Origin: an uncultured Aliivibrio sp.
Lineage (GTDB): Bacteria; Pseudomonadota; Gammaproteobacteria; Enterobacterales; Vibrionaceae
Length of the DNA: 52,404 bases
Direction of reading: 5' to 3'
Assembly (NCBI RefSeq): GCF_946479765.1
Contig: NZ_CAMLHO010000028.1
Coordinates: 1 to 52,404, forward strand
The notes under the pieces were generated by a model. That model worked only from the letters and a program-made list of their open reading frames with translations, had not been told where the DNA came from and made no database searches. The position numbers and the translations under genes were made by a program. Positions 38,801 to 47,829 of this stretch are shown here, one piece after another; positions within the stretch are counted from its first letter, which is position 1; every line of letters starts with the position of its first letter.

Positions 38801-39184
38801 CAAACCAACGAAAAAGGTCACGTCACCTACTTCATGGATAAAGAAGTTATCGTCGTTGATCGCGGTGAAAATGTTCATATTGCTCAGAACTCGGATAAGG
38901 CCATCGAAATAGGCTTGCGTCTTTCAATGGAGAAATTCGGTAATACGCTCGATATTCGAGGGACAGAAGAGTACAAGGCAAAACTGGTTGAAGTGGCAGT
39001 TAAGAACAACCTAAGCATTCAATTCTCTGATCCAAAACTGAACGAAATGATGAAAGAAAAAGCGCAACAATTTAAGGATGGTGAGAACATCATTCAAAAA
39101 GCAGAGCGCGATTACAAACCAGAAAATGAGTCACAAAAAGCCCCTACCATTGATAAGAAACAGAGCCACAGTTTCGATCGATAA
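35792..39184 (+). CDS. Relaxase (MOBP-type) with C-terminal LPD7-like domain
   Basis: An 1130-aa relaxase. The N-terminal ~200 residues include LHITLSFKED and the metal-binding PHIHIVIP (His near 123 and 125), a relaxase motif III. The exact catalytic tyrosine is not certain; Tyr19 is a candidate. A long basic, helical middle (about 330-640) follows. A beta segment containing KTVWGVGLQSTIEESKVRVGDSI lies near 680-710, as in primase/relaxase-associated modules. The C-terminus (VIVVDRGENVHIAQNSDKAIEIGL ... NNLSIQFSDPKLNE) is LPD7-like. It nicks oriT and leads the strand into recipients. A second ORF is nested in another frame at 36819-37061. Confidence 0.88.
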   Translation: MLVRVGGGNAGIGDYLRNGIKNGREHTRDELDHRIILEGNLNATELIINGVDTDAERYLHITLSFKEDHVDNDVMNSIVTEFKTFAMKAYSEDEYDFYAEAHVPKMKSLVDKKTKDLIERKPHIHIVIPKTNLQTNKRLDPFEIVEHNQTYIDAFQEVVNEKYGLASPKMNIRSNFTSESTVIERSKGDTFKGANKAIKEEVLKHVLTMPSSSLNDLSAHLVEQGYEVKERNKGKENNYLNIKEQGKSKGINLNDTVFTERFLSLPIEQKQQNLSGSSSNDYIAPEQGNYQATEKHHADLAHWNEHRSHEVRHVKFRNRAAYKAMSTQEKNAFIQQKKKAFLNDDIIPTRTQRDCVADINRNLDAAKRHLSHAQRDCGNIEPGARNIAHRRDLRALRSAVQRITGHQEPTKPVHERLTGHSRVTQQIQSDIMEGELEKQLLPDIAHIKKQLNATELLRDLSQSHGLITQKYVITQGKDGSDRIVCGTRQLNVADFLTKEMGLSWKEAKQQLEHSFARQRDPNAQKSTEHDREDFSQRWQPSHKKERKQAWKAQYANEKAYRFTIRKTFSTEKNAIYADDSLSKSERKIALSISRMNKVIVDMEFIEQREWDRNQLKQNYPNLITAQYQQFEQRHTPIESLLMNNSINGTIEEHGTAPYEFNKENKQSYYIKLKLPNNQVKTVWGVGLQSTIEESKVRVGDSISLTNAGKKEITVPTDIKDDNGKVIGTKTIDTHRNQWDIVKTPIIQSDINQAISLNNEAIELENKGLEDQAADKEYEASMLMYSIAKTEKENPFNSHEDPRLHQMFIKVKSELMVQPQKETPQPAPVNKPETITKAVLDKKLEASRLLIMYPKLKELGINAEHISKTEKGDRIQFNDKSLTVTELMKETHQLKPKQIVDELTPIYSGQERDKQRVIDYANRYINDPSNKIDTAKEKPMELTISSGQPERENNKERDIDNINEPNKSKQEQHNEPEKAPHSEPENTRNKQAPLPPQDYENITHQTNEKGHVTYFMDKEVIVVDRGENVHIAQNSDKAIEIGLRLSMEKFGNTLDIRGTEEYKAKLVEVAVKNNLSIQFSDPKLNEMMKEKAQQFKDGENIIQKAERDYKPENESQKAPTIDKKQSHSFDR
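36819..37061 (+). CDS. Nested ORF inside the relaxase gene (MobB-like position)
   Basis: An 80-aa protein in the +1-type alternative frame of the relaxase, with AAGG nine bases before its ATG. The sequence is strikingly protein-like: acidic, helical, regular heptads (HNEIVLQTLTEISTQQNDI, MLNEIVGTLNQEQEISLIDE, ISALLDPLYRELQDIKNQL), with no rare-composition signs. The relaxase frame over the same stretch is Arg/His/Asn-rich and low in hydrophobic residues, as if constrained by the overlap. ColE1 and RSF1010-type plasmids nest mob genes inside mobA. Homology to those was not established. Confidence 0.6.
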   Translation: MTTLSQQEHNEIVLQTLTEISTQQNDICLMLNEIVGTLNQEQEISLIDEISALLDPLYRELQDIKNQLNPSMNDSQDTAE

Positions 39185-39197
39185 GAAGTTGAAAATG

Positions 39198-39237
39198 CTG
39201 CGTCCGCAGTGAAGGGTTTCAAAGGGTTTACCCTTTG
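39198..39237. repeat. Two short palindromes after the relaxase gene
   Basis: CTGCG-TC-CGCAG (39198-39209) and CAAAGGGT-TT-ACCCTTTG (39220-39237) lie between the relaxase stop and the phased repeats. An inverted repeat near a relaxase and stb repeats is typical of an oriT region, so this stretch to about 39310 is an alternative oriT candidate. No firm nic sequence was recognised. Confidence 0.35.
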
Positions 39238-39318
39238 GCACAGGGCATGTTTTTACCAAATACGTAGTAGAGGGTGAAAACGTGCCTGTCGTGCCTATCT
39301 CTAGTTTTGTCACCATCG

Positions 39319-39450: not shown

Positions 39451-39972
39451 ATGCATTTTGCCATTGAAAAACTAAAAGACGGGATAAAACAGCTCGTTGA
39501 AATTCACGGAAGAACATCAAAAATGATGATAATCCGTGAATTATTTCATCCCTTAACCGAAGCCATGAACGACGGTGTAAAGCTAGAGTTAATTAATAAC
39601 TATCTTCACGAGCAAGGGTTAGAAATCACGTTACCAACGTTACGAAATATGATTTATCGCATCCGAAAAGAAAGAGGCATTTCACCTCAAAAAAGATCAA
39701 CACAAGATCTAAATGCTCAGCATCAAAACCAAACTCAAACCGTCGAAAGCGATAAATCGCTTTCGACGCCTAAAACCGAAATCGACTATCAAGCTCGATA
39801 CGATGACATCAATGGCCGCTTCAAAGCCACTGAATCATTTGAAGAGAAATACGCCATCTTAGGTGGCGATCCTAAAAAGCTAGACGGTCACACCCGTCGA
39901 AAACAACGTGAAATGTGCATTGAGTTACACATGGCCTTTCACAATCAATACAAACCATTTATCAAAATTTAA
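39451..39972 (+). CDS. stbA: StbA/TraK-like DNA-binding protein
   Basis: A 173-aa protein. The N-terminal domain (RELFHPLTEAMNDGVKLELINNYLHEQGLEITLPTLRNMIYRIRKERG) is the HTH pattern of StbA/TraK-type proteins. A Gln/Ser-rich linker follows, with a C-terminal helical region of unknown role. In R388, StbA binds repeats upstream of its operon and controls plasmid positioning and conjugation. The upstream phased repeats support the same here. Followed by stbB 14 bp later. Confidence 0.75.
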   Translation: MHFAIEKLKDGIKQLVEIHGRTSKMMIIRELFHPLTEAMNDGVKLELINNYLHEQGLEITLPTLRNMIYRIRKERGISPQKRSTQDLNAQHQNQTQTVESDKSLSTPKTEIDYQARYDDINGRFKATESFEEKYAILGGDPKKLDGHTRRKQREMCIELHMAFHNQYKPFIKI

Positions 39973-39986
39973 AAGAGATATTAACT

Positions 39987-40685
39987 ATGAAAATTGCAGT
40001 AATTAACTTTTCAGGCAACGTGGGAAAATCAATTATTTCTCAACACTTATTACAACCTCGCATGAATAACGCAAAAATTATCGCGGTTGAATCAATTAAT
40101 TCAGACGGCACAGATAATGAAACAATTAAAGGCAAAGAGTTTGCCGATATTATGGAAAGCGTCAGTGAATTAGATGATGTAATTGTAGATATTGGCGCAT
40201 CGAACGTCGAAGAGTTCATGAAAAAAATGAAATTCTTCACAGACAGTCAATATGACTTTGATTATTTTATTGTCCCGACAATAAATAAACCAAAGCAATT
40301 AACCGATACCCTATCCACAATTAACGAACTTCACGATTTAGATATTGAACCAAAAAATATTATAATCGTGTTTAACATGGTGGATATTGACGACAATATT
40401 CAACGCCTATTCTCTAGTTTAATTAACCATTCCGACGATATAGCTAATTTTAATACCAACGCCATTATTTACGAAAACGAGTTGTTCACTCGTTTAAAAG
40501 ATGAAGAAAAAAGCATTTCTGAATTAATTAACGACGATACCGATTACAAAGCGTTAATTCAAGCCACAGATGACCGCATTGAACGTCGTCAATTGTCTCA
40601 TAAGCTCGGAACCAAACGATTAGCAATGGGTGTATCAAAGCAGTTAGATAACACCTTTACGGTGTTATTTGGAAAAGGAGCATAA
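39987..40685 (+). CDS. stbB: StbB-like ParA-superfamily ATPase
   Basis: A 232-aa P-loop protein beginning MKIAVINFSGNVGKSIISQHLL. The Walker A is NFSGNVGKS, a deviant form with Asn-Val before the Lys-Ser, as in StbB/TraL proteins rather than classic ParA. VIVDIGAS (about 61-68) is the Walker B region. StbB in R388 is needed for transfer and opposes StbA in positioning the plasmid. Genes on both sides complete the stbABC order. Confidence 0.8.
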   Translation: MKIAVINFSGNVGKSIISQHLLQPRMNNAKIIAVESINSDGTDNETIKGKEFADIMESVSELDDVIVDIGASNVEEFMKKMKFFTDSQYDFDYFIVPTINKPKQLTDTLSTINELHDLDIEPKNIIIVFNMVDIDDNIQRLFSSLINHSDDIANFNTNAIIYENELFTRLKDEEKSISELINDDTDYKALIQATDDRIERRQLSHKLGTKRLAMGVSKQLDNTFTVLFGKGA

Positions 40686-40687
40686 GC

Positions 40688-41257
40688 ATGACTCCCGAAG
40701 AACTCGCAATTGTCAGTAAACCGATGACTACCATCACTACTATGCAAGAAGCTTATACCCGTGAAATTCTCAGCGAGATTTTTTTGCTACAAAAAAAACT
40801 CACTGAGATAGGCGGTGAATCTCAAATGCGTATCGGTATTACTCAAGACATCATCAATACGCACTTAAACCATGCAGCCAAAGCCCTTGATAATTACACT
40901 CAAGCGGCCAACGCGCATTTCTCTGTCACAAAGCAAGAACTCAAAGACATTGCCGATAATGAAGTCAAAACCAGTATCACAAAATCATTACTCGATGCTC
41001 ACCATAAATTATTGCTCGCTAATCCGCCTAGAATCGCTTTACAGGCGGTTCTAATGATGACAGTGGTCGCAGCTCTAGTAGGCGGCATTGTCGGCTTGAG
41101 TGGCGGTTATATTGCGTATCATGCGCAAAATACCAACCGCTTGAGCGTAAATGAAATTCAATTGATTGAAAAAGGACGATTGCTACAGCAATCGTTCTCA
41201 ACCCTTAGCCCTGCGACCAAGGAAGAACTGGAACAAGCTGCCATTAATTTTCAATAA
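40688..41257 (+). CDS. stbC: StbC-like/TraM-like membrane protein
   Basis: A 189-aa protein: soluble helical N-terminal part (residues 1-115), one transmembrane segment (ALQAVLMMTVVAALVGGIVGLSGGYIAYHA) and a short C-terminal tail. Position two bases after stbB fits StbC or TraM of RP4-like Tra1 cores. No motif beyond topology, so the name rests on operon order. Confidence 0.6.
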   Translation: MTPEELAIVSKPMTTITTMQEAYTREILSEIFLLQKKLTEIGGESQMRIGITQDIINTHLNHAAKALDNYTQAANAHFSVTKQELKDIADNEVKTSITKSLLDAHHKLLLANPPRIALQAVLMMTVVAALVGGIVGLSGGYIAYHAQNTNRLSVNEIQLIEKGRLLQQSFSTLSPATKEELEQAAINFQ

Positions 41258-41268
41258 GTCTTTCCTTG

Positions 41269-41341
41269 TTTCTGTTTACCCACAATCGGCTCACGAGTGG
41301 GGGTGAATATCTCTTACCGCCTCATGTTGGATAAACAGAAA
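41269..41341 (+). repeat. 73-bp covarying stem-loop element, copy 1
   Basis: Arms TTTCTGTTTACCCA and TGGATAAACAGAAA pair over 14 positions with a single C-A mismatch, enclosing a 45-base core that starts CAATCGGCTCACGAG and ends CCGCCTCATGT. Copy 2 lies 98 bp downstream in the same orientation and copy 3 at 43946-44023 inverted. Cores are nearly the same; arms differ but stay complementary. Nature unknown: structured RNA, or DNA hairpin. Confidence 0.8.
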
Positions 41342-41438
41342 AATAATCTCATCGTCATGATGGGGCTTTTTACTCCTCCCCTAAATAAATTACATCGAAA
41401 AGAAAAAGAGCAACAGCCACGTTGTGAGTTTTTCTGGG

Positions 41439-41511
41439 TTCCTATTTACCCACAATCGGCTCACGAGTGGGTGTGAATATCTCTTGCCGCCTCATGCTGG
41501 ATAAATAGGAA
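41439..41511 (+). repeat. 73-bp covarying stem-loop element, copy 2
   Basis: Arms TTCCTATTTACCCA and TGGATAAATAGGAA pair with the same single C-A mismatch as copy 1. The 45-base core differs from copy 1 at three positions. It ends 40 bp before the virB5 start, so as RNA it would sit in the virB5 5' leader. Confidence 0.8.
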
Positions 41512-41551
41512 TTGAACTGTGTGTTTTTAGGGGATTTTTTAAGGATTTACC

Positions 41552-42292
41552 ATGCAATTAAAAACAACCATGAAAGCGATAGTGTTAGGGCTATCACTTT
41601 CCCTACCCTCCGCACACGCTGGCTTTCCAACGTCTGTGTTGATTGATATTCCAGCCACCTTGCACCAGTTTCAGAATATGGGGCAAATGCTCAAAGAGTA
41701 CGCGACGATGTTAGACCAGCTCAATGAAATGCAACGCCAGTTACAACAAATGGAGCGCGAATACAATTCAATGACAGGTACACGGGGGCTAGGCAATATC
41801 TTAAATAACCCTGCGTTTTCAAAACATTTACCTGATAACTGGCAAACCGTGTTAAGCAATATCCGTTATAACGGATATGACGGCTTATCGGGTGCAGCCC
41901 AAGCTTTACGGGATGCAAGCAGAATTATTGATGCGTGCGAATACATTGAAGATAGGGCTGAGCGTCGAAACTGTGAAGCTCTTGCAGTAAAACCAGCACA
42001 AGACCAAGAATACGCAAGTAACGCTTATAAAACATCTTATGACAGACAAGAGCAAATCGAATCATTAATGAAAAAAATAGATCAAACTCGTGATCCAAAG
42101 GCTATCGCTGAATTAAGTGCCCGTATTCAAGCCGAACAAGCACTCATTCAGAATGACCAAAACAAATTAGCCATGTACCAAGCAACAACTCAGGCCGAGG
42201 ATCGTTTGTTGCAACAGCAACAACGAGAAATCAGCGCAAGAACATGGGGAAGTACAAAATATGGTGTCTATGTTGCACCTCTGGAGTTTTAG
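41552..42292 (+). CDS. virB5: VirB5/TrbJ-like type IV secretion protein
   Basis: A 246-aa protein with signal peptide MQLKTTMKAIVLGLSLSLPSAHA. It is helical throughout, with heptad-rich segments (LKEYATMLDQLNEMQRQLQQMEREYNSM and SARIQAEQALIQNDQNKLAMYQ), as in VirB5/TrbJ minor pilus proteins. TAAGG gives a good ribosome site. Its end abuts virB6 (the virB6 ATG begins one base after the stop). It lies 14 kb away from the main virB block, an unusual split. Confidence 0.83.
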   Translation: MQLKTTMKAIVLGLSLSLPSAHAGFPTSVLIDIPATLHQFQNMGQMLKEYATMLDQLNEMQRQLQQMEREYNSMTGTRGLGNILNNPAFSKHLPDNWQTVLSNIRYNGYDGLSGAAQALRDASRIIDACEYIEDRAERRNCEALAVKPAQDQEYASNAYKTSYDRQEQIESLMKKIDQTRDPKAIAELSARIQAEQALIQNDQNKLAMYQATTQAEDRLLQQQQREISARTWGSTKYGVYVAPLEF

Positions 42293-42293
42293 C

Positions 42294-43328
42294 ATGGACA
42301 TTAGCGTATTCAGTTATATTGGCGGAACAATTGATAATTTCACTTCAGACTTTATTGTTTCTGGTATCAGTGGATTAATCAGAGCAATAAGTCCCTTAAT
42401 CATGATGGGCGTTACTCTTTTCCTTATGGTGAAAGGATACTTACAAATTTTTGGTAAAACTGACGACTTAGCCCGTGATACGGTGATTTTAGGCATTCAG
42501 GTAATCACAATCACGACATTGGTATTGAACGTGGATAATTACACTTTCTATATAATTGATGGGGTAAATGCATGGTCAAGTGGTATCTCTAATGCAATCA
42601 GTAAAAATGGTAACAATCACAATATCTATCAAACATTAGACAGTTTACTAATGCAAGCTGTTGATATTACTGTTTACTGTTTATCAAAAGTAGGCTGGAC
42701 AGAGGGTTATTTGTGGTTCTTTGTTGGTATGGTAATTCTTACCGTCATTGCCATATTAACGATTATTTCAGCTATCATCATAATTGGAACCAAATTTTTA
42801 TTAACAATATTATTTGTTATTGGACCATTATTTATCGCTTTTGCAATATTCCCAATCACTCGCAAGTTCTTTGATTCATGGGTAACAAAAATTGTAGAAA
42901 ATGTATTGGTTCAGATATTTGGGGTTATCATCATTACGATGGCAATAAAAATCATCAGCAACTTTATTGGCAAAAATAATCCAGCGGTGCAAGACATTAA
43001 TCCGACCGCCGTAATGATACAAATCGTGGTTGTGGCTGGTATTCTAACGTGGGTAGTGAAACAGATACCAAACCTATCAGGCTCACTGGCTGGTGGGTTT
43101 GCATCTGGCTCTTTAACATTTAAAGAAGCTATGGCGGCCCCTGTTGCCGCTGCCGCTGCTAAATTCCTGAATGGCGCACCAAAAGGAGAAAGTAAGCCAC
43201 AACGGGATTCATGGACTGACCAGCAAGCGAATCAAGTAACAAAAGGCAATGCGCAAGCCTCGCCACAGCAAACCAAAGGAAGCCAAGCGATTAATGACAA
43301 AATCGCTGAGCATAACCGAAAATCATAA
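42294..43328 (+). CDS. virB6: VirB6/TrbL-like polytopic membrane protein
   Basis: From ATG 42294 the protein is 344 aa, with CTGGAG as ribosome site; a frame to 42261 overlaps virB5 and is not used. There are about five or six transmembrane segments between residues 20 and 275 and the conserved-type segment FLLTILFVIGPLFIAFAIFP. The tail is Gln/Ala-rich and hydrophilic. VirB6 forms the inner-membrane part of the channel. Terminators follow at 43380-43408 and 43496-43525. Confidence 0.85.
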   Translation: MDISVFSYIGGTIDNFTSDFIVSGISGLIRAISPLIMMGVTLFLMVKGYLQIFGKTDDLARDTVILGIQVITITTLVLNVDNYTFYIIDGVNAWSSGISNAISKNGNNHNIYQTLDSLLMQAVDITVYCLSKVGWTEGYLWFFVGMVILTVIAILTIISAIIIIGTKFLLTILFVIGPLFIAFAIFPITRKFFDSWVTKIVENVLVQIFGVIIITMAIKIISNFIGKNNPAVQDINPTAVMIQIVVVAGILTWVVKQIPNLSGSLAGGFASGSLTFKEAMAAPVAAAAAKFLNGAPKGESKPQRDSWTDQQANQVTKGNAQASPQQTKGSQAINDKIAEHNRKS

Positions 43329-43379
43329 GCTGAAAATAATGATACCCAAGCATCATAAGTTGAAATACAATCAACATAT

Positions 43380-43408
43380 CGACTATTTCCTAGCCTAAAT
43401 AGTCGATT
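43380..43408. terminator. Hairpin after virB6
   Basis: TCGACTATTT and AAATAGTCGA form a ten-base stem with an eight-base loop. There is no long T-run, so it may be a weak terminator or an mRNA-protecting hairpin. Confidence 0.5.
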
Positions 43409-43495
43409 CCTATTGTTTGCAGTAATGAAAATTACTACTCTTATTGTGTCACCAACTAGGTACACGCGCTTTATTTTCAGATTAATACTACTTTT

Positions 43496-43525
43496 GCCAA
43501 GCCTCTCAGTGCTTGGCTTTTTTTT
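43496..43525 (+). terminator. Strong intrinsic terminator of the virB5-virB6 unit
   Basis: GCCAAGC and GCTTGGC form the stem with an eight-base loop, followed by eight T. It overlaps the end of the convergent minus-strand gene. Confidence 0.9.
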
Positions 43526-43811
43526 AACTGGAATAAATTACATCAATCGCGTTCAGATACAGTAATGAACGTTCATTCATTAAAAATACCCTCTCAAAAG
43601 TATAGCCCTTCACGTACTTCTTTTTACTCAAATCGTAGACTAAATTACTTGGTTTTTTCTTCTTATATTTTGTGACAATAGCACTCGCAGTCGCTCGGTG
43701 AATACGAAATGTATCAGCGATAAACGGGACGTTAAATTCACCGTACAAATCTACGTGCGCATCAATAAACCTAAGTACAATAAGGTCTAGTTGTTCTTTT
43801 TGTGACAACAT
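43524..43811 (-). CDS. Small helix-turn-helix protein, 95 aa
   Basis: The middle (EFNVPFIADTFRIHRATASAIVTKYKKKKPSNLVYDLSKKKYV) reads as an HTH followed by a basic wing, like the regulator domain found on many plasmids. No effector domain. It is the first minus-strand gene after the virB5-virB6 unit, and copy 3 of the stem-loop element lies 135 bp upstream of its start. Probably a repressor of leading-region or transfer genes. Confidence 0.65.
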   Translation of the reverse strand: MLSQKEQLDLIVLRFIDAHVDLYGEFNVPFIADTFRIHRATASAIVTKYKKKKPSNLVYDLSKKKYVKGYTFERVFLMNERSLLYLNAIDVIYSS

Positions 43812-43945
43812 TTTCGATTTATCCTTACAAAAATAATATATAGTAATTTACCACATAGTAGTATATTACATCACTTAAATTAACTGTAGTTAAAAGCAAC
43901 ACTATAGCTTAAATCAATAGATAAGCTCACTGTAAAAGTGCGGAC

Positions 43946-44023
43946 TCTTTTCCACATATCCACATGAGGCGGTAAGAGACATTCAACCCCTCTCGTGAGC
44001 CGATTGTGGGTATGTGGAAAAGA
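43946..44023 (-). repeat. Covarying stem-loop element, copy 3 (inverted)
   Basis: On the plus strand, arms TCTTTTCCACATATCCA and TGGGTATGTGGAAAAGA pair over 17 positions. Read on the minus strand, the 44-base core matches copies 1 and 2 (CAATCGGCTCACGAG ... CCGCCTCATG) and retains their C-A mismatch, while the arms share almost nothing with copies 1 and 2. It lies between two minus-strand genes. Confidence 0.8.
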
Positions 44024-44073: not shown

Positions 44074-44997
44074 TTAATGCAATTTCGCGGTTTTTCTCTC
44101 GTCTTCTGCTCTGCAATAATCTACCCATTGCGCCCACTCGCCTTCTAACGTTGGCTCTCTAAAACAAATATCATGCCTAAACTGACATACCTCACCTGTC
44201 GCTAACGTTATTTCAACCTTAGTTTTATCGTATCCATACCCTTTACAATCTTCATGCTCTGCTAGGTATTGTTTTTGATCTGCAAGGGTCAACCATGCAA
44301 GGCGGTTATATTCTTCCATAGAAATCTCTTGATTAATATTACCGTTATTGTCTTGCTCTCGAAGCTCTTTATTAAATGCGTATGATTCTGACCATAGAAC
44401 GACGACTTTAACGATTTTTTTCTCTTCATCTTCTTGCGTTTTATCGGTAGCAACTAAACCATGATTAAGCGGTGAGATAAAACCAGAGTGTAAATAAGCC
44501 GCTACCGCTTGGTAGGTCATGCGTGGTTTCACTGGCTCTTGTTCGTCTTCTACCGTTAGCGTTTCAATTATCGCAGGCTCTACTTCTCCAAATGTAATCA
44601 CCATCGAAACAAAACACCAAACGCCTTTATTCATTACCAATTTAATTTCATCATTGTGACGATTTCGGATTAATTCGATTTTTAAATTATGGTATTCATT
44701 CGTCATATACTCTTGAACGTCTGCCAGTGTTGAAACCGTTTCAATCTCATTATAAGTACAAGAATCACTTGAATACGTTTCCTTAACTTTTACTATTTGA
44801 GTCGCTAGAGACAAAAGAAGCGCAATTTTTTTCACCGCATTTTTACGAATAGTCACACTATTTACTGACTCATTAGCAAACATTCCAAGCAATACGCTCT
44901 TGCTCTGAATTAATTCAGATTTGGAAGAGCCTGCTCTTGCTTTAATCGCGGCTGTTTCTTTAGTGATTGTTGAGTTGATAGCAAGTGAGTGAGTCAT
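44074..44997 (-). CDS. Leading-region protein, ArdC-like N-terminal tag plus LPD25-like C-terminus
   Basis: A 307-aa protein. The first ~28 residues (INSTITKETAAIKARAGSSKSE) are nearly the same as the start of ArdC encoded 1.9 kb away, after which the two proteins are unrelated. The middle is unassigned. The last ~75 residues (EYNRLAWLTLADQKQYLAEHEDCKGYGYDKTKVEITLATGEVCQFRHDICFREPTL) look like the large-polyvalent-protein domain LPD25. It probably acts early after plasmid entry, perhaps against host restriction or defence. Its leader is a copy of the structured repeat at 44925-45410. Confidence 0.7.
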   Translation of the reverse strand: MTHSLAINSTITKETAAIKARAGSSKSELIQSKSVLLGMFANESVNSVTIRKNAVKKIALLLSLATQIVKVKETYSSDSCTYNEIETVSTLADVQEYMTNEYHNLKIELIRNRHNDEIKLVMNKGVWCFVSMVITFGEVEPAIIETLTVEDEQEPVKPRMTYQAVAAYLHSGFISPLNHGLVATDKTQEDEEKKIVKVVVLWSESYAFNKELREQDNNGNINQEISMEEYNRLAWLTLADQKQYLAEHEDCKGYGYDKTKVEITLATGEVCQFRHDICFREPTLEGEWAQWVDYCRAEDERKTAKLH

Positions 44998-45914: not shown

Positions 45915-46889
45915 TTATCGCTTAATTAGCCATTGATGCGCCTTACTTGCTTGGCTTGCGGCTTTAAAAATAAATTTCTTATCGCCATTTAAACGCTCTA
46001 GCCAGCTTGCAATATAACTTTCATGTTGCACCTCGCCCACAATCCCCAAATCAGCACAGCAGAACGCTGAACCCAATTCCGCGATCAATTCTTCAAACGC
46101 ATAATCTTTAGAGCCAAAACTATTTTTTAAATTACGATCTAAACGGGTTTTGTGAGCTGTTGCGTGAACCAATTCATGCCATGTAGTCGCATAATAATCA
46201 CAAGACGAATTAAAACGATCAACCATAGGCAATGTGATCTCATCGTGTGCCGGCGAATAAAAAGCACTAACCCCACAATGATTGATTTTAATTTCTGTTG
46301 CATTGATGGCCTTAACAACGTGATCTAGCGTTACAAATTCGTTTTTCTCTCTTACTTCTGCCACTGTAACCGCTGGCTTTTCGATACCTTCCACTTGATC
46401 AATGTTGAACACTGTAAAACTTTTTAGCATTGGGATACGTTCCATTTTTCCGTCGTCGTTTTCTTTTTCCCAATTTTTATAAAAAATAATTGAAGTCCCT
46501 TTTTGGCCTTTGATAACATTACCGCCTAACTCAACGGCTTGGTTATAGGTCAACCAGTAAGAGCTTGTGAAACCTTTCATAACTGTTTCACTCCAAAGCA
46601 GTAGAATATTCACCCCTGAATAATTCGCTTTTGTTTTAAAGTTCATTGGTAACATTGAACATTCATTGGTTCTATCCCACGGACACGCCCACGGTTTAAC
46701 CCCACTTTCTAGTGCTGCCATAATGCGATCCGTCACCATTTGATAAATGTCTTTAGATACTTTTACGACTGCGCGTTTTTTTGTTGTTTTACGCTTTTTA
46801 CCCATTTCATTTTTGGGAGAGCCTGCTCTTGCTTTAGTCGCTTCTATTTCTTTAGTGATTGTTGAGTTGATAGTGTTTGAATAAGTCAT
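45915..46889 (-). CDS. ardC: ArdC-like antirestriction protein
   Basis: From ATG 46889 (MTYSNTINSTITKE) the protein is 324 aa; AGGAAA is the ribosome site, and a frame to 46922 is less likely. The N-terminal single-strand DNA-binding region has DIYQMVTDRIMAALESGVKPWACPW. The C-terminal zincin-like domain carries the HELVH metal motif (near residue 237). ArdC protects incoming single-stranded plasmid DNA in the recipient. It starts with the same 28-residue tag as the gene at 44074 and has the same repeat (R2) upstream. Confidence 0.9.
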   Translation of the reverse strand: MTYSNTINSTITKEIEATKARAGSPKNEMGKKRKTTKKRAVVKVSKDIYQMVTDRIMAALESGVKPWACPWDRTNECSMLPMNFKTKANYSGVNILLLWSETVMKGFTSSYWLTYNQAVELGGNVIKGQKGTSIIFYKNWEKENDDGKMERIPMLKSFTVFNIDQVEGIEKPAVTVAEVREKNEFVTLDHVVKAINATEIKINHCGVSAFYSPAHDEITLPMVDRFNSSCDYYATTWHELVHATAHKTRLDRNLKNSFGSKDYAFEELIAELGSAFCCADLGIVGEVQHESYIASWLERLNGDKKFIFKAASQASKAHQWLIKR

Positions 46890-47304
46890 GGCTGTTTTTC
46901 CTATGTTTAAGTGAGTTTTCATCTTCGTCTTCGCCTGACTGTCCGGCCTCCTAGCATGGTTCTGCCTTGCAAAAGCGCAACGCGGCGAAGCGAACTATTG
47001 CAAGGGAGGTTCTGATAGGAGACGGTTAACAGGAAGTAGCGAGGACGAAATGAAAAAGCACACATAGGGAAAACAATGACGCAATGAAACCACTATCAGC
47101 GATTACAAGCACTTAGAAAGAGAAGAGAAAGCTCTTGATTTTAGCTCTGGCACTGGCCTTTGATGTTGCTTTTGCGTTGGGGAGAATGACGACAGGAACC
47201 CACTAGCCGTTAGAAACTCTGTTTCTTTACGGATTGGGGTTATCGGAGGACGAGCGCAGCGAGGAAATGACCCTTTTTCGATAGAAAAAAACGCCCTGAA
47301 TAAT
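46816..47304 (-). repeat. Large direct repeat R2: structured leader of ardC
   Basis: Second copy of the repeat described at 44925-45410. The long hairpin spans 46894-47074 with outer arms GTTTTTCCTATG/CATAGGGAAAAC. The inner stems are CTCCTA/TAGGAG and CCTTGCAA/TTGCAAGG, different in sequence from the inner stem in R1 but in the same place. The distal ~190 bp are almost unchanged between the copies. Confidence 0.85.
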
Positions 47305-47626
47305 AAATAGAAGATCTAATATTGGGATTTAATACGGCAATAAAAACCAATTATAGCCCCGAAATATCTATAACAAATCGCAACACTGTAGGAAAATGCT
47401 ACATATATTTTCACGAAAAACACGGTAATACTAAGGCATAAACTGAGCTAGAAATGACGATATTGAAAGATAAGTAAATGAAAAGCTAGGATAAGAGAAA
47501 GTGTTTAATGTAGAATGTCGGTGGGTGCTTTTGGCTATCAACCGAAAGCATAACGCAAGTTTTGTAGACGGTAGATAAACAAAAACCCCGAAAGTTTAAT
47601 TTTCATTAACTAACGAGGTTTAAGTG
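47305..47626 (+). other. hok upstream region
   Basis: About 320 bp with no gene seen. It is AT-rich and contains a nine-base hairpin TGCTTTTGG/CCGAAAGCA (47526-47550). It should hold the hok promoter and the start of the hok mRNA. The end of the segment carries the sok-complementary region. Confidence 0.5.
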
Positions 47627-47642
47627 ATGTACCTAGACAATA
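47578..47642 (-). ncRNA. sok: Sok-like antisense RNA
   Basis: On the minus strand a short transcript would start near 47640 from TTGCCC, a 17-base spacer and TAAGAT, and end at a hairpin AACCTCG ... CGGGGTT with TTTTTG. The region TTAATTTTCATTAAC on the plus strand, followed by GAGG, is nearly the same as the sok target of plasmid R1 as I recall it. Sok would block translation of the mok leader and so of hok. Confidence 0.75.
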
Positions 47643-47686
47643 CGGATCTTAGCCTCTATTTTGATAAGGGGCAAGTAAAATGCTAA
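47627..47686 (+). CDS. mok: Mok-like leader peptide
   Basis: A 19-codon ORF (MYLDNTDLSLYFDKGQVKC) that starts in the sok target region and ends just inside hok. In classical hok/sok, mok overlaps most of hok; here it is short and ends right at the hok start. Coupled translation makes hok depend on this leader. Confidence 0.6.
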   Translation: MYLDNTDLSLYFDKGQVKC

Positions 47687-47829
47687 AAAAATCGGCTGTA
47701 ACGAGTTTAGTAGTCATTTGTGTGACTATTGTAATTAGTCTTTGGTTGGTGCGGGATTCACTGTGTGATATTTCGTATCAATCAGGTAGTACGATAATAA
47801 CGGCAACACTTGCCTACGAATCAAGGTAG
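47680..47829 (+). CDS. hok: Hok/Gef-family membrane toxin
   Basis: A 49-aa protein with one transmembrane segment (AVTSLVVICVTIVISLWLV) followed by RDSLCDISYQSGSTIITATLAYES, which carries the conserved Cys, the SLC-I-Y spacing and the C-terminal AYES of Hok. Ribosome site AAGGGG. Hok depolarises the membrane when the unstable Sok antisense RNA decays after plasmid loss, killing plasmid-free cells. A perfect ten-base hairpin follows (47838-47864), likely part of the stable mRNA 3' end. Confidence 0.93.
   Translation: MLKKSAVTSLVVICVTIVISLWLVRDSLCDISYQSGSTIITATLAYESR

Follow-up and report, generated by a model that had tools for sequence, protein, structure and literature searches.

Three stem-loop elements and their surroundings

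The 52,404-nucleotide contig analysed here (the window) derives from a conjugative plasmid of Aliivibrio, a relative of pES100 of A. fischeri ES114, and it carries three copies of a stem-loop element that is the subject of this report. Copies 1 and 2 occupy positions 41269–41341 and 41439–41511 on the plus strand, and copy 3 lies inverted to both at 43946–44023 on the minus strand. These coordinates and strands, proposed in an earlier sequence-only reading of the window, are confirmed by direct reading and by a search of the window's own genome, which returns the three copies as its sole matches at E 0.001. The copies share a common core, in which copies 1 and 2 differ at three positions, as that reading had counted, and they are flanked by arms that differ from copy to copy yet remain complementary. 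Specifically, copy 1 forms a hairpin with arms TTTCTGTTTACCCAC and GTTGGATAAACAGAAA, and on the opposite strand its pairing includes a T-G wobble and a single bulged base; its DnaA-box-like stem, read from the sequence and conserved in relatives, has TTACCCACA as one arm (41276–41284, plus strand). Copy 2 has arms TTCCTATTTACCCAC and GCTGGATAAATAGGAA with one bulged base, while copy 3 adopts the stablest fold of the three (z −6.5 on both strands). The arms of copies 1 and 2 are retained in pES100, and the loops resemble each other within each plasmid, a likeness that may reflect gene conversion or adaptation to a common reader.

Copy 1 begins 11 bp after the stop of the third gene of an stbABC/traKLM-like operon on the plus strand. 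This operon comprises an open reading frame (ORF) at 39451–39972 with a homologous position in pES100, a StbB-like ATPase gene at 39987–40685 (annotated as stbB in pES100, with a weak CbiA/ParA match just below the cut-off), and an ORF at 40688–41257 for a small protein with a hydrophobic stretch, relatives of which adjoin elements in L049, L060 and L066. Copies 2 and 1 stand 40 and 210 bp before virB5 (41552–42292, plus strand; Pfam type IV secretion system match, annotated as virB5 in pES100), the distances given by the sequence-only reading, and a virB6-like gene follows at 42294–43328 on the same strand (Pfam TrbL/VirB6). Between the latter and copy 3 lies a minus-strand ORF of 95 amino acids resembling a helix-turn-helix (HTH) protein (43524–43811), 134 bp from copy 3 and without a Pfam match, whose homologue at pES100 14–310 is 69% identical. 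Beyond copy 3, the minus strand encodes an LPD25-domain protein (44074–44997, ORF with Pfam match) and an ArdC-like anti-restriction protein (45915–46922, Pfam ArdcN and MPTase-PolyVal), both in the presumed leading region. The elements themselves are presumed to lie in this region, which would enter the recipient first, because the gene order resembles that of R388; the assignment also leans on what we take to be the layout of R388 and RP4, and both the position of the origin of transfer (oriT) and the direction of transfer are putative.

Several further features of the window are recorded here in their own right. Inverted repeats at 39184–39300, between the relaxase gene and the stb-like operon, also occur in pES100 and constitute a candidate oriT. 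A sok antitoxin RNA (Rfam RF01794) is found at 47523–47690 on the plus strand, and pES100 has an annotated Hok/Gef gene. In addition, an N-terminal STITK stretch is common to otherwise differing leading-region proteins, namely those at 44074–44997 and 45915–46922 (minus strand) in the window and at L061:28506–28964 and L063:6734–7018, and it may represent a transfer signal or the mark of a shared DNA element.

Fold, covariation and the stem word

The three copies are real, folded and covarying. Nine copies, taken from the window, pES100 and two Aliivibrio contigs, were aligned. Standard pairs fill 95.1% of the pair cells, both partners change in 8 of the pairs, and not one of 500 shuffles attains the observed covariation score of 0.255. 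Thirteen more diverged plasmid relatives, aligned in the R-sense (the strand opposite the one first read), display 11 pairs that change on both sides, with 43 such cells, and their covariation score is likewise reached by 0 of 500 shuffles; the shuffles ignore kinship, and slid controls score far lower in both alignments. When 87–90-nucleotide stretches around the window copies are folded as DNA, z lies between −2.4 and −6.6 across the two strands. The sequence-only reading had proposed that selection acts on folding, whether of RNA or of single-stranded DNA (ssDNA), and this is upheld: homologues with non-complementary arms would have spoken against it, and the relatives' arms are the opposite, complementary and covarying.

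The single C-A mismatch that was thought to be conserved does keep its position, and on the opposite strand it proves to be a T-G wobble rather than a mismatch; the broken pair of relative g11 also becomes a wobble in the R-sense. With RNA and DNA parameters alike, this sense has the lower folding energy for 28 of 32 elements, the set of 32 excluding the near-copies pES657-44, g9_1, L046, L064, L012 and L014. Beyond the conserved wobble, the strand asymmetry is small, amounting to 30 G-U against 9 A-C cells in columns 4–28 of alignment A2, with 20 of the 30 at that one position. Alignment A2 holds 23 of the 32 elements (setting aside 8 without exact core words and the near-copy L062b), and alignment A3 holds 13 of one inner-stem type. 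Copy 3 is scored by strand at 102.8 versus 31.0 bits with the first covariance model (R1) and at 53.5 versus 36.7 bits, with the opposite preference, by the second (R2); these scores are uninformative on strand because each model favours the strand from which it was built.

Read in the R-sense from the outside inward, the element consists of an outer arm followed by [T]TATCCA(N)CA paired with TGTGGGTA[A], in which N is an optional bulge and the T-G wobble falls at the fourth position of the box-like word. An internal loop TGA/GAT comes next, then a GG/CC or GC/GC pair, and then an inner hairpin that varies by group. To judge from its letters, the internal loop could accommodate T-T and tandem G-A pairs. 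The DnaA-box word TTWTNCACA occurs 24 times in the 2982 bases of the 32 elements (8.0 per kb) against 29 times in 280220 other bases (0.10 per kb), counts that are not independent because the 32 elements are related; 19 of the 32 plasmid elements contain it.

Carriers among plasmids, genomes and single-stranded DNA phages

A DNA search with copy 1 finds two plasmids only. Covariance-model searching, the route that the sequence-only reading had pointed to, does recover relatives in Vibrionaceae genomes: R1 has hits in 17 of the family's 329 genomes at E 0.1, five of its 24 matches (L033, L034, L035, L037 and L041, E 0.01–0.08) being set aside as weak, and R2 matches 18 of 329 at E 0.01. Of the 111 plasmid records that one diverged copy matches at E 0.1, 107 come from Vibrio and 4 from Aliivibrio; in 22 the match spans at least 80% of the query. 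Photobacterium plasmids bear a different element type, whose copies (L053, L061) are without the TGAG/CGAT inner words, keep the stem and the wobble, and have the S-sense loop GTTTTAATGTCT. One contig match (L011) reads as coding sequence and was judged to be chance.

Across ten plasmid records and further contigs, the elements neighbour relaxase, StbB, VirB5/VirB6, ArdC-like, H-NS or coupling-protein genes, and no gene beside them is common to all. At least two copies are inverted to each other in the window, pES100, L055, L060, L061 and L062, while two copies are direct in L053 and L067. A replication origin lying between the inverted copies was weighed from annotation and is not favoured. 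That every copy is oriented with the next gene, as the sequence-only reading had it, holds within the window and fails in the family, where orientation is mixed and the copies at L061:18457–18528, L065:6001–6079 and L067:4990–5203 lie antisense between genes; at stb-proximal sites, it is the strand antisense to the operon that folds better.

At class level, 6 of 369 genomes match, the window's own included. Genomes G358 and G365 have the core CCACATGAG...CGATTGTGG in common, and G645, G546 and G657 share chiefly the stem, G645 also having inner loop words. In G365, a 1.5-Mb genome, a dispersed repeat of about 110 bp bears the element (L109–L111). G645 carries seven hairpin copies with shared flanks, apparently close to one end of a dispersed repeat (L115–L118, L101, L107), and the reverse strand beside the L107 copy reads like the end of an IS3-type transposase. 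When 398 genomes from the phylum are searched by pattern, the window's own genome is recovered together with one out-of-class site, in G787, against 0 in the reversed control; this site lies roughly 0.5 kb away from a gene whose product has a Pfam single-stranded DNA-binding (SSB) domain. The lone match could be chance, about one being expected on our estimate, its inner 6-bp stem is attained by 80 of 3000 random loops, and the free fold of the stretch favours another structure.

The core TCCACATGAG...CGATTGTGGG is also found on an inovirus-like contig and in GenBank Microviridae. The 5.5-kb contig encodes a protein resembling Zot of CTXphi together with two other large proteins that match families of unknown function, and is taken as an inovirus; in the microvirus carriers L128 and L134, capsid and replication proteins are confirmed. 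Microviridae give the best GenBank matches to these phage copies. The carriers whose records were opened are bajarodmic virus 1110, Dulem virus 211, Capybara microvirus Cap3_SP_441, Tortoise microvirus 6 and Microvirus D_HF4_340; some listing E-values are weak (0.06 for 1110, 3 for Tortoise, 6 for Capybara), and such assignments depend on how the folds read. Matches in the search listings include bajarodmic viruses 469 and 580 and Tortoise microvirus 104, and the remaining listed hits are short, partial and largely from larger phages. Between bajarodmic virus 1110 and Dulem virus 211 the inner part is swapped and TTATCCACA/TGTGGGTAA is kept, both copies standing directly after the replication gene; in Tortoise microvirus 6, one copy is reduced to TTATCCACATGAGC-GTTA-GCGATTGTGGGTAA next to a fuller one.

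Analysis of microviruses selected by capsid reveals the TTATCCAC hairpin, scored with at most one mismatch per arm, in 11 of 21 loci, or 10 of 20 without the seed L134, which was itself found through the hairpin pattern and to which the set is related by capsid rather than drawn at random. By the same criterion, none of the 21 loci scores in any of 10 shuffles or with any of 30 permuted words. The hairpin lies at most 115 nucleotides upstream of the capsid start in 10 of 18 loci examined. The place upstream of the capsid gene in L167, L169, L170 and L172, which are without the TTATCCAC hairpin, holds another shared hairpin, CGCGCGTGCG-like, which is perhaps an alternative initiation site. Among viral contigs, a pattern that includes the wobble gives 27 hits, of which 15 are extended hairpins, some mutually related, and 7 are one gene in related contigs rather than hairpins; one permuted control pattern gives 8 hits and 0 extended. 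Another candidate, L130, was judged to be chance, its stem not extending. In 7 of 10 small contigs that have extended hairpins, and in 4 of the 5 GenBank records opened, the strand bearing the wobble is complementary to the coding strand. The TTATCCAC hairpin was not found in phiX174, G4, M13 or phiMH2K, and the G4 record annotates its own complementary-strand origin. On a microvirus-like contig (L129:2140–2220), the words of the element additionally build a hairpin in circularly permuted order, with a TAAT-closed stem and the loop motif at the open end.

Interpretation and comparison with known systems

Since the element is also present in ssDNA phages, we favour ssDNA over RNA as the form in which it would act. 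An ssDNA stage is common to most carriers, namely plasmids with relaxase, VirB, StbB and ArdC genes, the inovirus-like contig and Microviridae, and the G787 site beside an SSB gene probably also fits this pattern. We propose, with a probability of roughly 0.55, that the element serves as a single-strand initiation site (ssi), plausibly one of the ABC-primosome type with a DnaA box. In this mechanism, the DNA would become single-stranded either as the conjugative T-strand entering the recipient or as the genome of an ssDNA phage, and would fold into a hairpin whose stem displays the TTATCCAC(A)-like word with its TTA end basal and its CAC(A) end facing the loop. Recognition of this stem by a conserved host factor would set off primer synthesis and, with it, the making of the missing strand. 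Because the stem carries the DnaA-box word, DnaA would be the likeliest such factor, and it would load DnaB-DnaC as in the ABC-primosome, followed by primase and DNA polymerase III. An ABC-type site is our first guess because the stem word matches the DnaA box and because DnaA-box hairpins on ssDNA prime replication in vitro, as described in passages of PMC6127211 and PMC3737561. Copies in either orientation would function, because the arms are inverted repeats and both strands show the word alike. A priming hairpin read by the host would explain the covariation, the mostly intergenic sites, the several copies per plasmid, the presence in unrelated mobile DNA and the indifference to gene orientation.

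A number of observations weigh against this proposal. TTWTNCACA is absent from 13 of the 32 plasmid elements, including window copies 1 and 2, in which the box word is interrupted by a bulged base. Most elements carry the word with a T-G or other mismatch, which should not help DnaA; a rough parser reads T-G in 36 of 46 elements, with 5 more of 51 unread, L087, L093 and L099 misread when checked by eye, and L128 and L131 found by patterns that include the wobble. The inner words vary (CATGAG preceded by CA, bulge allowed, in 23 of 32; CGATTGTGG in 23 of 32), and DnaA alone would not account for them. In R388, whose leading region is similar, both the element and the box are absent, and no nick site was found in a search of the window. 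Furthermore, 10 of the 21 capsid-selected microviruses are without the element, the wobble strand is the coding strand in the remaining records and in the inovirus-like contig, leaving the strand used unclear, and some copies sit within dispersed repeats, one IS3-like, where an ssDNA stage is not obvious.

The same evidence bears on other explanations. Were the element a single-stranded promoter of the Frpo kind, host RNA polymerase would read the folded T-strand to give early leading-region transcripts and possibly primers. The copies do lie in the apparent leading region, some near ArdC-like genes, and copy 3 precedes a gene templated by the presumed T-strand, provided that transfer runs, as we infer, from the relaxase side towards stbABC; Frpo itself is described in passages of PMC9849209, PMC11541004 and PMC7690428 as an ssDNA hairpin of conjugative plasmids that drives early expression in vivo. 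This explanation is nonetheless unlikely, as paired −35/−10-like hexamers (spacing 15–19 bp, at most two mismatches per hexamer) are not enriched, occurring in 16 of 32 elements versus 21.8 (sd 2.6) in mononucleotide shuffles, and the copies at L061:18457, L065 and L067 have no gene in the required direction. No more probable is a structured RNA, whether a self-cleaving ribozyme, a cis-regulator or a small RNA. Its attraction lies in the covariation, the wobble pairs and the 3x3 internal loop with possible tandem G-A pairs, all of which look RNA-like. Against it, the strand that folds better runs antisense to the operon at the stb-proximal sites, and in 7 of 10 small contigs it is antisense to the coding strand; gene orientation is mixed, and what the carriers have in common is ssDNA rather than a gene. 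Nor does Rfam return any match over the element at gathering level, in agreement with the sequence-only reading, which recognised no class; only unrelated, chance-level matches (among them a leader and microRNAs; best E 0.18) appear at E up to 10, and the resemblance to the twister-sister ribozyme suggested there gains nothing, no such match arising at that level for copies 1–3 or L049.

A site acting in duplex DNA, such as inverted DnaA boxes, the operator of another regulator or a cruciform recombination site, is about as improbable as a structured RNA. The arms are indeed inverted repeats of a DnaA-box-like word, and perfect inverted boxes without an extended stem are common in viral contigs (extended in 22 of 80, of at least 120 hits); a duplex, however, needs no covariation of outer arms and inner stem, and the conserved mismatch reduces palindromy. 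Least probable is a selfish dispersed repeat, REP or MITE-like (repetitive extragenic palindrome or miniature inverted-repeat transposable element), with no function for its carrier. The dispersed copies with shared flanks in G365 and G645 have this appearance, but plasmid and microvirus copies at homologous places diverge with compensating changes.

Returning to the initiation site, we tentatively extend the proposal, with somewhat less than even confidence, to a single second-strand hairpin code shared by conjugative plasmids, filamentous phages, Microviridae and perhaps elements like integrative and conjugative elements (ICEs) in other proteobacteria, consisting of a DnaA-box stem, a kept wobble and often a TGAG/CGAT loop. 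If true, primosome sites of the DnaA type, or of a type still unnamed, would form a natural class of wide occurrence, known so far mainly from one in vitro model. To our knowledge, the start of second-strand synthesis is not known for most conjugative plasmids and most Microviridae. A motif searchable in thousands of mobile elements would make the second-strand question directly testable, join two kinds of ssDNA biology and give DnaA a part in gene transfer. Passages of PMC7690428 treat the second-strand start mainly through Frpo/ssi of a few plasmids, and among the open-licence PubMed Central papers that searches on DnaA-box hairpins in Microviridae or on conjugative plasmids brought up, judged by title and opening of the abstract, there is none on this hairpin family.

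Among known systems, complementary-strand origins include the phiX174 primosome assembly site, the G4 primase site and the M13 RNA-polymerase site. The element resembles these as a candidate complementary-strand origin of ssDNA phages, whereas those phages themselves are without the TTATCCAC hairpin; the motif AAGCGG, which we take to be the PriA-site consensus, occurs in 0 of the 32 elements. A close likeness in design is to the A-site of Masai and Arai, an ssDNA hairpin with a DnaA-box stem that, according to passages of PMC6127211 and PMC3737561, functions on circular ssDNA in vitro; the comparison is with the published description rather than with the A-site sequence. Hairpin formation on ssDNA is shared, being supported here by the predicted fold and the covariation, while the word in the element usually has one mismatch (mostly T-G) and at times a bulge, and an inner loop recurs in many copies. 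Frpo/ssi of F-type plasmids, also compared by description, is likewise an ssDNA hairpin in the leading region of conjugative plasmids; the element differs in lacking an enriched −35/−10 pair, in occurring also in ssDNA phages and in being far shorter than the 328-bp Frpo region given in a passage of PMC7690428. The single-strand origin (sso) of Gram-positive rolling-circle plasmids and of ICEBs1 (PMC4595007), again compared by description, is a folded ssDNA site for second-strand synthesis after conjugation, and three stem-loops are predicted there for ICEBs1 sso1. Sites of the ssi and sso types are thus a known kind; what appears new, set against the papers that the searches brought up, is a family that spans conjugative plasmids and ssDNA phages and keeps its wobble in a DnaA-box-like stem.

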